In this document: piece after piece, positions 7,313-35,520 of the stretch
Layout: every line of letters begins with the position of its first letter
How positions within the stretch are numbered: position 1 is the stretch's first letter
Source of the DNA: a virus
Direction: 5' to 3' (one strand)
Length of the DNA: 45,979 nucleotides
Virus record (IMG/VR): IMGVR_UViG_3300022674_000016
Span: 1-45,979 of that record
Position numbers and translations under genes: made by a program
The notes under the pieces: generated by a model
What the model saw: the letters and a program-made list of their open reading frames with translations, nothing else
What the model was told of the DNA's origin: nothing
Databases searched by the model: none

Positions 7313-8581
7313 GTGGCGAGCATACTAATGATCAGCAAGTATGGCGATGGAATTCCCCTGGCAATACGAATGGCTCAAGATGGAAACATCGTCAAAATCT
7401 GGATCAAAGACAAGGAAGCCCGAAAGTCACTCAACGGCTTCCGCAACCCAAGCAAGGTTAGCGATCCGTACAAGATGCTTGATCAATACGACTTGGTACT
7501 GAATGACATGGTTGGAACAGGCTCCGTTTGCGACACCCTCTCCTCAAAGGGGAAGCTCGTCCTTGGAGGTGGTTCATTCAATGACAAACTTGAACTGGAT
7601 CGTGAATATGGCTCTAAGGTTGCCCAAACACTTACGGAGGCAGCTATCCCGCCGACTGTATCAATTAACACAAAAGAAGAACTTATAAAATTTTTTGAAA
7701 AGACCAACAAGCCCCAAGTAATTAAACCCCTCGGCAACAAGCAAACCAACCTCACTCTTGTGTCGAGGGATAAAGAAAACCGAATGCTCAAAAGCGTTAT
7801 CGCAAAGAGAGCCGCCGAATTCGTACCTTGCATAGTCCAAGAAACTGTCGAAGGAATAGACATATCGACGGAAGGCTGGTTCAACGGAAAGGAATGGGTA
7901 AAACCATTCAATCACACCATTGAGTCGAAGCGGTTCATGGAAGGCGATAAAGGATGCCAAACGGGTTGTATGGGAAACATCGTGTGGCCCACAACCGGAG
8001 ACAAATTGACCTCAACCGTCCTTGAACCCTTGAGCAGTCTATTAGAGAAAGTAAACTACGTTGGCCCAATCGACGTAAATTGCATCGTAACGGAGGAGTC
8101 GGCCTATTTTCTTGAATATACGGCTCGCTTTGGCTACGATGCGATCCAAGCTTGGTCAGAATTGATCAAGGCATCCATCTTCGACTATCTCTATGGAATC
8201 GCTTCGGCTCAAAAGGATTCATTCACTTATCACAATGAATATGCAATAGCCGTTCGCTTGACGATACACCCCTTCCCAGGAAAGGGAGAAATTGAAGACC
8301 TTTCGGCAATACGTGTCATTGACCCTCCCCAAGCTGCAATGAAACACGTTTGGCTTGCTGACGTATCCCAGGACGAAGACACCTTCCTGATGGCGGGTGT
8401 TGACGGTGTAATCGGGGCCGTAACATCAAGGGGAATCTCTGTCAGGGAATGCCAGCGCAGGGCGTATCGAACGATAAACAATATCACACTCAGCGATGAT
8501 GTCCAGTACCGAAACGACATAGGAAACAACGTCGAAGACGATAAGAAGAAGCTGATAGAGTTTGGGTGGTTGAATGCCTGA
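7313..8581 (+). CDS. ATP-grasp ligase, PurD/GARS-like
   Basis: 422 aa from a GTG start (AAAAGGAAA upstream). Order matches phosphoribosylamine-glycine ligase-like ATP-grasp enzymes: an N-terminal Rossmann-like part with GG (LVLGGGSF ~83-90), the ATP-binding lysine in QVIKPLG (~135-141), QETVEGIDISTEGW (~176-189), and a metal-binding GPIDVNCIV…YFLEYTARFG (~251-274; Asp254, Asn256, Glu268). It probably forms an amide or similar bond on an acid substrate using ATP. A plain purine biosynthesis role is unlikely for a gene in a virion operon with no other purine genes; substrate unknown. Confidence 0.82.
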   Translation: MASILMISKYGDGIPLAIRMAQDGNIVKIWIKDKEARKSLNGFRNPSKVSDPYKMLDQYDLVLNDMVGTGSVCDTLSSKGKLVLGGGSFNDKLELDREYGSKVAQTLTEAAIPPTVSINTKEELIKFFEKTNKPQVIKPLGNKQTNLTLVSRDKENRMLKSVIAKRAAEFVPCIVQETVEGIDISTEGWFNGKEWVKPFNHTIESKRFMEGDKGCQTGCMGNIVWPTTGDKLTSTVLEPLSSLLEKVNYVGPIDVNCIVTEESAYFLEYTARFGYDAIQAWSELIKASIFDYLYGIASAQKDSFTYHNEYAIAVRLTIHPFPGKGEIEDLSAIRVIDPPQAAMKHVWLADVSQDEDTFLMAGVDGVIGAVTSRGISVRECQRRAYRTINNITLSDDVQYRNDIGNNVEDDKKKLIEFGWLNA

Positions 8582-12406: not shown

Positions 12407-14044
12407 ATGACAATTCCGTCATGGGATCAGACTATTGATACCTTTTTCACCTCCACTTGGGCGAACAGGAAAAAGGAAGCCATCGAGCAAGCCTTCCTGA
12501 AAACCCCGTTCATCTACTGGCTGCGTGAAAAGGGTCACATGGAGAACCAAGCTGGATTCCGTAGAGTAGAAATTCCCCTGGAGTACGGATCGAACGAAAC
12601 GATCCGCTGGATCGGGAAGGGATCGACCGTCCCAATTCAGGACAGTGAACTAATCACCATGTGCTACGAGCAGTGGAAGTACGTAGCCGCTTCCGTTGTG
12701 CGCTGGTTCACTGAAGATCAACAGAACCGTGGTCAGGCGGCGATGATCAAGCTGGCAGAGAAGAAGCTCGGAGCGGCAGAGCGTGGCCTCTACGAAGACC
12801 TCGAAAGGGTAACGCTTGGGGATGGGACCGGGACAAACGAGCCTAACGGCATTCAGAATATCATCTCTGCAACGCCTACTACCGGAACCGTCCACGGTCT
12901 GAACAGAGCGACTTACGATTGGTTTCGCAATCAGCAAAAGACTTCCACTGGAGCCGCCGCTGTCTACCTCGTCAGCGACATGCGAACCTGTCTCAACGAC
13001 ATCATTCAGTATTCCCGAAGTGAACTGAAGGACATCATTCTCGTCACCAACCAAACCATCTTCGAACTCTATGAAGATGTTTGCCTTGAGATGAAAGTCC
13101 TCCAGAACACCATGCTCGGGGATGCGGGGTTCGACAACGTGGTCTTCAAGGGCAAGCCTCTAATCTGGTGTCCGACCGCTCCATCCGGCAACATGTACTT
13201 CATCAACCCAACGTACCTCAAGCTCGTCTGTGACGAATCATTCTTCATGGAGATGACGGATAAACAAACCTGTCCGTCTAAAACCTTCTCTGATTACGGG
13301 GAACCCCACCTTAACTAATGGGCAACCCGAGGCAAGGCACGTTTATGTTTGAATCTCGAAAAGAATTGATGGCTTACTTGGCAGGGTTCCTCGATGGGGA
13401 AGGCAGTTTTATTATTATATTTGACTGCAACGGTGTCTTTTCAGGACGCATCAATGCAGGACAAGTTGATAGAAGACCCCTTGAATTGCTTGTTGCTACA
13501 TTTGGTGGACGAATCAGGAAGATAACAAAAAGTTATGTTTCTAAATTTGGAAACCAAATGGTAACCCAATGGGACATAACCGGACCAAGTATGTATAAAA
13601 TGCTTCTTGAGATTCAACCCTACCTCCTCGTCAAAGCCGAGCAAGCTGATTGTCTCATTTCTCTCCAAGAGTCAATCAACATGTATAAGGGCAGAATTGG
13701 TAAAAACCGAGAATTTCCTCTTCTCCCTGACGAGGTGATTTCGTATCGTAGAGAGCTTTATGAAAAATGCAAAGCTCTTAAACGTGGGCTAGCCGCAACG
13801 ACTAAGCGAGAAGGGTATTCCTTGGCTGGGAATACATGCGATAGTCTGGACTGCACAAATGGTAAATGTGCAGAGGTGGCAGAAATGACCACCCGCCTCA
13901 TGGCTGTGAGGTCATAAAAGTAACAGAGCGTGGAAGCAGATTCCTGACCAGCCCTTCGACAAGGTTGCTCAAATCGTCTGTACCTTGAACATGGTTTGCT
14001 CAAGGCCGATCTGTCAGAAGGTACTCACAAGCATCGCTGCTTAG
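12407..14044 (+). CDS. Major capsid protein, gene split by an intron
   Basis: Exon 1 is 12407-13261 (285 codons) and exon 2 is 13931-14044 (37 codons plus TAG); spliced product 322 aa. Unspliced reading would end at 13318. Exon 1 has HK97-fold-type capsid features: FYW-rich N-terminus, RRVEIPLEYG, VRWFTEDQQN, AAERGLYEDLERVTLGDGTG, and NMYFINPTYLKLV near its end. Exon 2 starts WKQIPDQPFDKVAQIV and holds NMVCSRP, a conserved capsid C-terminus that the unspliced frame lacks. AAGGAG precedes the start. The junction reads MEMTD/WKQIP. Confidence 0.9.
13262..13930 (+). ncRNA. Group I intron in the capsid gene
   Basis: 669 bases. P1: exon bases 13255-13261 (GACGGAT) pair over 7 bp with 13272-13278 (GTCCGTC), placing a U-G wobble exactly at the 5' splice site; the intron ends in G13930. 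A P4/P5-like segment AATGGGCAACCCGAGGCAAG is at 13317-13336. P7: GACTA in GCAACGACTAAGCG (13795-13808) pairs with TAGTC in CGATAGTCTGG (13839-13849). A hairpin TGCACA…TGTGCA (13852-13872) follows, then GGTGG…CCACC (13875-13893). All fit a group I ribozyme; subgroup not assigned. Splice sites are inferred. Confidence 0.88.
13318..13917 (+). CDS. LAGLIDADG homing endonuclease, intron-encoded
   Basis: 199 aa. MAYLAGFLDGEGSF (residues ~19-32) is a clear single LAGLIDADG motif with the catalytic acidic residue, followed by the family pattern …GRINAGQVDRRPLELL…FGGRI. A single motif implies a homodimer. It should cut intronless capsid alleles to spread the intron. The start at 13318 overlaps the exon 1 read-through stop (TAATG), as at other junctions in this genome; Met at 13345 is an alternative. 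Both ends lie inside intron core structure. Confidence 0.88.
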   Translation: MGNPRQGTFMFESRKELMAYLAGFLDGEGSFIIIFDCNGVFSGRINAGQVDRRPLELLVATFGGRIRKITKSYVSKFGNQMVTQWDITGPSMYKMLLEIQPYLLVKAEQADCLISLQESINMYKGRIGKNREFPLLPDEVISYRRELYEKCKALKRGLAATTKREGYSLAGNTCDSLDCTNGKCAEVAEMTTRLMAVRS

Positions 14045-31971: not shown

Positions 31972-33295
31972 CCTCTCCCCTACCTCCTGTGGCTGGGGTT
32001 TGCAATGCTTCATCAGTTTTAATCTCACATTTTCCCAATAGATCATCTTTCTTTCCTTTCCCTCTGAATGAAAGTTTGAAGACAAATCCTTTTGTTGCTT
32101 CATCCGATCCATCTCCCTTCGGTGCCACTTCGATTTCGCCTGACTTTTTCATGATGGAAAGGGCTTCGTAGTATTGACGTTCGCCTTGTGACAGGCTTCG
32201 GTAAACCTTACTCAGCAAGTCGCCTTCCGATAACTCTCCAAAAGTGTGAAGGAGTTCCTTTATTTCTTGGATTAGGTGCATCCTTGGGTGTGTTGTGAGT
32301 GATCGTATCCTAGAACGAGTTTCTGGCAATATTGCCTTGAGTATGTTTCTAGCTTGCTCTATGCTTTGCTTGCTCAAGCGCATGTTGTGCTTGTTCAATT
32401 CCAAGAGCATTGCTATCTTCAAGGCTTGCTCCACTTCGGCTTCCATGTAGGCATCGTACTGTTCATCGTTCGTTGGGGTGTACATTTCGTAGTATCTTCG
32501 GTAGTAATTTCGACCTTCATCAGTCCATCCCATTTGTCCCTCAAGGTTGTGGAAAGCTCTAAATCGCTCAACGATACTGTCCCAAGCAGCATCACTTGGA
32601 CGGGAAGGTTCCGCTACTCTACGGTTGAATGTCGATGGCATCTCGACAATGATGAAACGCCTCATGAAACCGCCTGTGAATGCGTCCTGTGGGATCATGC
32701 TTTGCAGCCATTTAGGAGTTGAGCCAGCTATGATGGAGATGCAGTTGTTGCGGAGGACTTCTTTCCCTCGTCCGATCGTTTCGCTTCGCCACTCCTTGCG
32801 GAAATCGTAGAGGTCCGTTATCAAGCTGACCATCCCGGTGTTGTATTGCTGTTTGCCGAAGAGGACGCTCATCTCGGGGGCTTTGATCAAGCCTGTTGCG
32901 TCCCTTGGGCCGATGCGGATCATTTCCCTTGGGGTCATCGGGCTCGCAAGGGCATGGACAACGGCTTCGGGAGTGAGCTTGTCGGCAAGGATGCGAACGT
33001 CCTCGAAGGCTTCTGTCAGGCAGTTTACAGCCATGTTGATTGTTGAGGATTTGTGGCCCCGGTATGGAGGGGCAAGGAGCGTGACCCAAGGGTTGGGCAT
33101 CAAGCGGTCTAGCAAGCCTTCGTCACCTCTTTGTATCCAGACCTTGTTATTGATAGCTGCACCCATTACGCAAGCCGCCGTGAAGAAGCGGAAGCGGGGG
33201 CAAGCTTCAAGTTCGTTGGTGAAGTCTAAATAAGCCCCTAACCAACCTTCGGTGGGAAGGTATTCTGTTATTGCATCGTATGTGTTTCCTTTCAT
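31889..33295 (-). CDS. DUF3987-type helicase/primase-like ATPase, 468 aa
   Basis: Met at 33295 overlaps the polymerase stop (ATGA). N-terminal FRFFTAACVMGAAINNKVWIQ then PNPWVTLLAPPYRGHKSST, where YRGHKSS stands for a Walker A loop (~75-84), then IIAGSTPKWLQSMIPQDAFTGGFMRRFIIVEMP with the sensor-like arginines: the DUF3987 pattern found in phage and mobile-element replication proteins. Probably the replicative helicase that partners the neighbouring polymerase. No TOPRIM primase seen. Confidence 0.8.
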   Translation of the reverse strand: MKGNTYDAITEYLPTEGWLGAYLDFTNELEACPRFRFFTAACVMGAAINNKVWIQRGDEGLLDRLMPNPWVTLLAPPYRGHKSSTINMAVNCLTEAFEDVRILADKLTPEAVVHALASPMTPREMIRIGPRDATGLIKAPEMSVLFGKQQYNTGMVSLITDLYDFRKEWRSETIGRGKEVLRNNCISIIAGSTPKWLQSMIPQDAFTGGFMRRFIIVEMPSTFNRRVAEPSRPSDAAWDSIVERFRAFHNLEGQMGWTDEGRNYYRRYYEMYTPTNDEQYDAYMEAEVEQALKIAMLLELNKHNMRLSKQSIEQARNILKAILPETRSRIRSLTTHPRMHLIQEIKELLHTFGELSEGDLLSKVYRSLSQGERQYYEALSIMKKSGEIEVAPKGDGSDEATKGFVFKLSFRGKGKKDDLLGKCEIKTDEALQTPATGGRGEDGVDTEGSPLSSEQARTIERKTNSQAD

Positions 33296-35520
33296 GATCG
33301 TATCTCGATAGCTATCTTTGTGAAGTCCCGCCAATTCGTACCAACGCCAAGGGAAACAGGGAAGGAGTGGTCGTTCATCTCGGGAACGGGGCTTTCCATG
33401 ATGAGCATCATGTCCCTTGCAACGTCCATTGAGTCGCATATATCAGCCTGGATAGTTATTGAATCATGGACAGTGAAGCAGAGGTCAAAGCCCTTGGCAT
33501 AGAGGGTGTTCAAAGCTTTCATGCAGATGTCGCTCCCTGATGATTGGATCGGAGTGTTCAGGGCTTGGGTAGCAGTTTGAATGTGGCGGGAGCGTCCGAA
33601 GGGTGTATAGCTTTTGCTTGTTGATTCAAAGATTGAAGTTTGCTTATCACGATAGCGGATGAGGCCAGGGTACTTTTTGATACAGGCAACTTGCCATTGT
33701 TCTGCTTCTTTAATCGTAACGCCGAATTGCCTCGCAATAGCTGTAGGTCCACGACCATAAGCTGTTCCGAATACGACGTTCTTTGTCCAGACTTTTTCCT
33801 TGTCCGTAGCATCTTCCCATTCCTTTCCGAAGATTATTTTACACATCTGGTGGTGGACATTGAGGCCATTGGCTATTTCTGAGAGCATCGTTGCTTCTTC
33901 AGCTATGACAGCTAGGACTCGCACTTCCAGTTGAGAGTAGTCAGCGTCTATGAATACTTTTCCTTCATCGGGGATGTAGATGTGGCGCATCGCTTTAGGT
34001 ACGTTTTGCAAGTTTGGATTAGTGCTTGACAATCGGCCTGTCCCTGCACCACCGCACTTGTAGTGGGTGTGAATGCGTCCGTATTCAAGGCGGTCCATCA
34101 CGCCTTTAACGTAGGTTGAGCAAAGCTTTGTTATGGAGCGGTACTCAAGAAGCTTTACCATCAGGTCGCTCTTTGGATGGTTGTGCTTGATATGGTATTG
34201 AAGGAGTTGAACGCCTGTGGATTCGATGTCGAAGTATTCTTTGAGTTGCTTCGGGGAGCTTGGGTTGATGTCAATTGGATCGAAGTAGGTTTCTTTTATG
34301 TCGTTGGCTTTGGGTAGGAGGTCTTCTTCTATCTTGAATAGTGTATCGACATCGACAACGCACCCACGCTTTTCCATTGCGTTAACGGTGTAGGCAAGGG
34401 GGATTTCTATCTGTTGAAGGACATCGAGGTTTCCTTGATCCATCACTTCCATCTGCTTTTCGTAGACTTGGAAGGTGACGAGAGCGTCGAGACAACCGTA
34501 GCGCAATCGGCGGTCCCTTTCCCACGTTGCAATGGTTTTCATCTCAGCTTTGGTCGGCTTGTAGCTCTTGATGTTTGTGTACTTGCTTCTGAGGAATTCG
34601 AGGGAGCCGGGAAGCTCACTGGATAAAAGGTGTTCAGCAAGGCGGGTGTCAAAGATAAGTCCTTTTGTCTGGATGCCGTGAGCGTCCACCATTGCCAAGT
34701 CGAACTGAGCATTCTGCATTATCTTCTTGGCGTTGGGGTCTTCGAGCCAGCGTTCTAAGACAGGCCACTTCGGGTCTGTTTCATGGAGGTCAAAGGCGAT
34801 GGCCTTGTCATGCTCGAAAGAGAGGGATGCGCCAATCACCTTGTCTTTGCGAGGGTTGAGTCCGGTGGTTTCGGTGTCGAACGCTGTTGGGTAGCGAGAT
34901 GCTTTCTCCAAGTAGTCGGCTAGGACGTATTCGTCAACTTCAGTAATGAATGTTGGGTCTTCGTCAACTTCGATAGCTACACCAAGGGAATATTGGATTG
35001 ACTTTTCTATGTCTTGGATTGCGATATCTATCCATTGGCGTTGTCGCATTACGAAGCTCGGGTGGAGCATGAACATGACGGGGCAGTTGTAGCCGTACCA
35101 ATCGAGGAGAGGTGCCGTCGATCCTCTCAAGTTGCCGATGGTGCGGAGTCCGGTCAACGCTCGGGCCGGCACTTCGCCAAGGGCGACGATCAGGTTGGGT
35201 TGGCATTGGTGGATGTCAGAGTTGAGGAAGTAAGAACAGCATTCGATTTCCTTTACGCTTGGTTTGAGGTCATCGGGAGGAGCGCACTTGCAAGTGTTCG
35301 ACAGGTTTATTCGGAGCTTGTTCATAGAGGCTTTGTTCATGAGGGACCAGAGCATTTTGCCAGCGGGTCCGGTGAAGGGCTGGCCTGTTATGGTTTCGAC
35401 TTGGCCTGGGGCTTGACCTACGAAGAGGATGCTGTACTGTGGGTTCTCGGGGAAGTAGGGCTTGACGTATTTGTATTGCTTGAGGGTGCAGGATTCGCAG
35501 ATTTGTTCGTTAGGTTTCAT
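33292..35520 (-). CDS. UDG-domain/3'-5' exonuclease/family A DNA polymerase fusion
   Basis: 742 aa. Residues 1-~175: uracil-DNA-glycosylase-like domain with cysteines Cys8, Cys11, Cys77/79 and Cys94/95, positioned as in iron-sulfur family 4 enzymes; motif GQAPGQVE…GQPFTGPAG (35-54, Glu replaced by Gln in the first motif) and HPS (153-155). ~210-360: DnaQ-like exonuclease (FDTETTG, Asp215/Glu217). Rest: family A polymerase motifs A (DADYSQLEVRVLA), B (KNVVFGTAYGR) and C (TVHDS). An N-terminal UDG-like domain is known in SPO1-type phage polymerases. Overlaps both neighbours by ATGA. Confidence 0.93.
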   Translation of the reverse strand: MKPNEQICESCTLKQYKYVKPYFPENPQYSILFVGQAPGQVETITGQPFTGPAGKMLWSLMNKASMNKLRINLSNTCKCAPPDDLKPSVKEIECCSYFLNSDIHQCQPNLIVALGEVPARALTGLRTIGNLRGSTAPLLDWYGYNCPVMFMLHPSFVMRQRQWIDIAIQDIEKSIQYSLGVAIEVDEDPTFITEVDEYVLADYLEKASRYPTAFDTETTGLNPRKDKVIGASLSFEHDKAIAFDLHETDPKWPVLERWLEDPNAKKIMQNAQFDLAMVDAHGIQTKGLIFDTRLAEHLLSSELPGSLEFLRSKYTNIKSYKPTKAEMKTIATWERDRRLRYGCLDALVTFQVYEKQMEVMDQGNLDVLQQIEIPLAYTVNAMEKRGCVVDVDTLFKIEEDLLPKANDIKETYFDPIDINPSSPKQLKEYFDIESTGVQLLQYHIKHNHPKSDLMVKLLEYRSITKLCSTYVKGVMDRLEYGRIHTHYKCGGAGTGRLSSTNPNLQNVPKAMRHIYIPDEGKVFIDADYSQLEVRVLAVIAEEATMLSEIANGLNVHHQMCKIIFGKEWEDATDKEKVWTKNVVFGTAYGRGPTAIARQFGVTIKEAEQWQVACIKKYPGLIRYRDKQTSIFESTSKSYTPFGRSRHIQTATQALNTPIQSSGSDICMKALNTLYAKGFDLCFTVHDSITIQADICDSMDVARDMMLIMESPVPEMNDHSFPVSLGVGTNWRDFTKIAIEIRS

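Follow-up and report, generated by a model that had tools for sequence, protein, structure and literature searches.

A probable mobile group I intron with a LAGLIDADG endonuclease gene in the major capsid protein gene of a tailed double-stranded DNA virus

INTRODUCTION

In the virus record IMGVR_UViG_3300022674_000016 (the window is this whole stretch of DNA, 45,979 nucleotides in length) the capsid reading frame is broken after position 13261 and picked up exactly at 13931, which raises the question of how a complete capsid protein could be made from the gene. The initial annotation attributed the break to a group I intron carrying a LAGLIDADG gene, and this proposal is borne out by the analysis described here. 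We propose, with a probability of about 0.93, that the 669-nt insert is a group I intron, mobile and self-splicing, within the gene for the major capsid protein of a tailed dsDNA virus. This reading is supported jointly by homologues with an empty site, by the anatomy of a group I core and by an I-CreI-like LAGLIDADG reading frame.

RESULTS

Uninterrupted relatives delimit the insert

The gene and its insert comprise the following parts:

12407-13261, + strand: major capsid protein gene, exon 1 (285 codons), from an alignment to 17 relatives without interruption
13262-13930, + strand: probable group I intron, 669 nt, from the exact empty site in 17 relatives and the core fold
13931-14044, + strand: major capsid protein gene, exon 2 (37 codons and the stop)

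The unspliced capsid frame (12407-13318) encodes 303 amino acids, its final 57 nt belong to the insert and it ends with TAA at 13316-13318, in agreement with the read-through stop that had been placed at 13318. Joining 12407-13261 to 13931-14044 gives 322 amino acids in frame, with GAT (D285) followed directly by TGG (W286), and the capsid C-terminus does resume at 13931 as had been claimed. The expected loss of about 37 residues in the absence of splicing proves to be exactly 37 native C-terminal residues, with 18 foreign ones added in their place.

The spliced product is matched along its entire length by phrog_9953, a major head protein family (E 1.4e-40), and, in the alignment to capsid proteins suggested by the initial annotation, is 65-77% identical, end to end, to five uninterrupted relatives. 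Across the viral and genome scans the junction is covered in 17 relatives (16 contigs from IMG/VR and one from a MAG, each counted once); in all 17 the capsid gene is unbroken across the exact junction and in none is there an insert, so that clearly no homologue ends in the manner of the unspliced exon 1. TGGAA, just 3' of the junction, is invariant in 17/17 relatives, and W286 and K287, directly after the join, are invariant in a 16-sequence alignment. Exon and intron bases differ at both sites, which fixes the position of the junction.

The product is an HK97-fold major capsid protein, as judged from the phrog_9953 family match and from a Foldseek search with the model of a relative (L012; pLDDT 55, moderate), for which phage capsids and encapsulins rank highest (best E 9.9e-8). 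In the same model, of moderate to low confidence, the C-terminal 37 residues hold two strands (292-308 and 313-318), and the region is conserved in all relatives aligned. A capsid protein made without splicing would, on this model, miss both strands.

The insert contains the helices of a group I core

The elements of the predicted RNA are all on the + strand:

13255-13278: P1, formed by 13255-13261 and the internal guide 13272-13278, seven pairs, U.G at the 5' splice site
13284-13290 (CCUUCUC) with 13808-13814 (GAGAAGG): P3, minimum-energy fold
13297-13300/13326-13329: P4, minimum-energy fold, inside the sub-threshold RF00028 match 13297-13329
13305-13308/13319-13322: P5, minimum-energy fold, inside the same match
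13331-13345: 5' strands of P6 and P6a, with partners 13779-13786 and 13792-13794
13800-13804 (GACUA)/13842-13846 (UAGUC): P7, the guanosine-binding helix, by direct reading and pattern search
13815-13822/13828-13835: P8 hairpin, minimum-energy fold
13851-13857/13867-13873: P9, from the fold; its loop region is common to psbA intron 2 of S-CBWM1
13875-13881/13886-13893: P9.1, from the fold
13895-13901/13906-13912: P9.2, from the fold
13930: terminal intron G (omega-G), direct reading

Both splice-site features of group I introns are found, with the U at the 5' site pairing with G in P1 and G as the last intron base; the seven-pair P1 and the terminal G had both been noticed in the initial annotation, as had a P4/P5-like segment and a P7 pairing, which are likewise present. 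When the reading frame (13348-13776) was excised and replaced by GAAA, the unconstrained minimum-energy structure gave ten helices in group I order: P1, P3, P4, P5, P6, P6a, P8, P9, P9.1 and P9.2. The predicted P3 has 7 bp and spans >500 nt of natural sequence, and P6a and P8 have 8 bp each. Without its ORF the intron has a predicted folding energy of -89.2 kcal/mol, whereas dinucleotide shuffles average -68.0 (sd 4.8; z = -4.5), and none of the 500 shuffles is as stable. P7 is missing from this structure because a nested fold cannot hold it together with P3; GACUA and UAGUC nevertheless sit exactly at its expected place, giving the P3-P4-P5-P6-P7-P8 order together with the P3/P7 pseudoknot. 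The order CGGG-GAA-CCCC...GGGCAACCCGAGGCAAGG resembles the Q and R elements of group I introns such as that of Azoarcus. Any P10 helix would have to be very short, which counts against the group I reading.

A structure-only descriptor for P3-P4-P5-P6-P7-P8 has five matches in the 46-kb window when both strands are searched, so the shape by itself is not unique there. The intron site is the only one of the five with a canonical GACUA P7, and the only one within an insert delimited independently by protein homology.

Covariance models and searches for relatives of the intron

The test set in advance by the initial annotation, a match to a group I covariance model, gave a negative outcome: the window has no RF00028 (Intron_gpI) match at the Rfam gathering cut-off, and Rfam searches of sub-stretches at permissive E values up to 5 or 10 returned no group I match. 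A direct RF00028 search of the record yielded one match, at 13297-13329 (9.3 bits, E 0.26, model positions 62-94), whose location on the predicted P4-P5 makes it weak but well-placed support. By itself a 9-bit match proves nothing, since the records of relatives contain a 12-bit match (in contig G013) that lies antisense to an ORF and is presumably due to chance. We do not count the missing match as a refutation, because the ORF divides the model, the record's only sub-threshold match falls on P4-P5 and the fold recovers the other helices; failing the cut-off reflects the detection criterion of one model and not a defining biological feature. The failure is attributed to the 430-nt reading frame inside P6, which splits the model, and probably also to its overlap with the core, which suggests that similar introns are under-counted in virus collections. 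A similar difficulty has been described for Bastillevirinae introns, in which a long loop separates partial matches (PMC11878797).

No close homologues of the intron or its endonuclease were found in IMG/VR, phage DNA or plasmids. When the intron was compared with 2.3 Gb of phage DNA by distant blastn, the top match was the annotated group I intron 2 of psbA in Synechococcus phage S-CBWM1 (E 0.2), and the stretch in common is the P7' strand plus the P9 region. The exact P7'-P9 pattern is matched by a single contig in IMG/VR (139,069 bases). Further relatives of the S-CBWM1 intron 2, which have a long P7-P3' segment, are placed at or close to several loci, terminase and psbA among them.

The endonuclease frame and its overlap with the ribozyme

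13345-13917, + strand: putative LAGLIDADG homing endonuclease gene, 190 aa from ATG 13345 (199 aa from ATG 13318), motif LAGFLDGEGSF

The frame has a single LAGLIDADG motif and similarity of the I-CreI type: chains of the I-CreI family in the PDB match over about 110 residues with E values from 6e-5 to 1e-3, and an engineered variant matches at 8.5e-9. Pfam LAGLIDADG_1 stays below threshold (E 0.011, 17.1 bits against a cut-off of 23.1), a shortfall that concerns detection and not biology. The frame also matches phrog_5046 (E 2.9e-16), for which the PHROGs label 'HNH endonuclease' is contradicted by the LAGLIDADG motif. An AlphaFold model built from the one sequence reached pLDDT 37 and was left out of the argument.

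Translation probably starts at ATG 13345 rather than at ATG 13318; AAGG lies seven bases upstream of the former, and the N-terminus from there matches the length of I-CreI. The read-through stop of exon 1 and the ATG at 13318 overlap as TAATG (13316-13320), and a start at 13318 could be translationally coupled to that stop.

The endonuclease frame passes through P6', P7, P3', P8 and the P9 hairpins up to 13917, so that roughly the last 45 codons also serve as the 3' core of the ribozyme. Intron ORFs are usually confined wholly to loops, according to a review (PMC3984707), and we regard the overlap as a variant of detail. Translation could hinder folding, because the exon 1 and endonuclease frames both cross core helices.

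DISCUSSION

Proposed mechanism and alternative explanations

In the proposed mechanism the transcript would fold so that P1 presents the U.G pair at 13261/13272, a guanosine bound in P7 would attack the 5' splice site, and the freed U would then attack after G13930, joining the exons to give the 322-aa capsid protein; RNA left unspliced would yield the 303-aa form missing the last strands. The I-CreI-like endonuclease predicted from the P6 loop would probably cut capsid alleles that lack the intron, in the neighbourhood of the conserved junction, and the intron could thereby spread by homing. Splicing would have to be efficient, as we infer it is, capsid genes being those that demand the most efficient splicing.

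An intein is ruled out, as the insert has in-frame stops and no read-through, and a group II intron was set aside, there being neither a GUGYG start nor a reverse transcriptase. The very low RF00028 score and the ORF tail that crosses the core could be taken to indicate a degenerate insertion that no longer splices, leaving a broken capsid gene in a defective genome record. This is very unlikely, given that the core helices are all intact together with both splice-site nucleotides, the endonuclease frame is open, the two exons are intact and conserved, and the remaining structural and replication genes look intact.

It is less probable still that incomplete splicing yields the 303-aa exon 1 product as a minor but functional form of the capsid, so that one gene gives two proteins. 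The upstream frame does enter the intron by 18 codons and its TAA overlaps the ATG at 13318, but in-frame stops after exon 1 have been described in many bacterial group I introns (PMC3984707), and the product would be without the two C-terminal strands of the low-confidence model, in a region conserved in all relatives. Least probable of all is a free-standing homing endonuclease gene within the capsid gene, or an assembly chimera, without a surrounding ribozyme. Such an insert would destroy an essential gene, the joints are base-exact and restore the frame, and the group I core is formed by ∼80 nt on the 5' side of the endonuclease domain and ∼150 nt on its 3' side. In favour of this alternative, related endonucleases do occur as free-standing genes beside capsid genes, as in Stenotrophomonas phage StenR_269, whose 'intron homing endonuclease' adjoins the capsid gene and is not part of an intron within it. 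A self-splicing group I intron is the reading that we retain.

Host and other genes

The single relative found in a cellular genome, contig JAOQII010000011.1 (L028) of a Candidatus Syntrophoarchaeum MAG, has a related capsid operon. It is probably a circular viral contig of 39 kb, and the positions of its capsid and terminase genes point to circular permutation. Host assignment through MAG binning is weak, and infection of anaerobic archaea, as the Candidatus Syntrophoarchaeum binning would imply, is doubtful; if true, an archaeal tailed virus would here be carrying a group I intron and its endonuclease in its capsid gene.

Several other genes of the window and its relatives were noted. A PurD/GARS-like ATP-grasp enzyme is encoded near the terminase (7313-8581; Pfam GARS_A, E 1.7e-13), and a frame of similar size and look (L047 177-1439) adjoins the terminase of a relative, IMGVR_UViG_3300002220_001155. 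The large terminase subunit of that relative (L047 1441-4110) is encoded by a frame of 889 aa, interrupted in frame by ∼350 aa with Hint-like and LAGLIDADG-like motifs; this insert is probably an intein, with no Pfam match above threshold. At 33295-35520 on the - strand of the window, a uracil-DNA glycosylase domain (Pfam UDG, E 2.3e-26) is fused ahead of a DNA polymerase of family A (DNA_pol_A, E 2e-58) that also has a 3'-5' exonuclease. The relative contig G013 (L030 2067-3108) appears, from sequence reading only, to encode a QueE-like protein and an adjoining small FolE/QueF-like protein, a pair that may suggest 7-deazaguanine chemistry.

Comparison with known introns

The predicted endonuclease resembles I-CreI, from the chloroplast 23S rRNA intron of Chlamydomonas, in having a single LAGLIDADG motif and in the ∼110 residues aligned. 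Overall similarity is weak, the final acidic position in the motif is E (LDGEG) where I-CreI has D, and the C-terminal tail of the present protein is encoded by the ribozyme core. The psbA intron 2 of S-CBWM1 (L010 1319-1545) has core motifs in common with the present intron, namely GCAACGACTA, TAGTCTGG in the P7' strand and CACAAATGGTAAATGTG at P9, but it lies in psbA and is without an ORF. In S-CBWM1 and related introns the P7-P3' spacing is long (IA-like P7.1/P7.2), whereas here only 3 nt (13805-13807) separate the 5' strand of P7 from the 3' strand of P3, leaving out the P7.1/P7.2 of group IA; the intron is thus not of the S-CBWM1-like, IA-like layout.

Lactococcal phage Tuc2009, as far as its citation in PMC3706429 goes, offers another group I intron in the gene for a phage capsid subunit, in a different phage group. 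The closest arrangement already known is that of the Cluster J mycobacteriophage LittleE, in which an insertion of approximately 819 bp in the major capsid gene, most likely group I according to its authors, was proven to splice by RT-PCR and N-terminal protein sequencing, LittleE being the sole phage of its group with a capsid intron (PMC3706429). Compared by description, the two share the location in a capsid gene and an I-CreI-related LAGLIDADG ORF, and in both exon 1 ends in U and the intron in G. They differ in capsid family, host and insertion site, and the endonuclease, on the opposite strand in LittleE, is here in the sense orientation within P6. The present intron is a further case of this arrangement, and with its 17 empty-site relatives it is a clean one, joining the few known group I introns of phage capsid genes.
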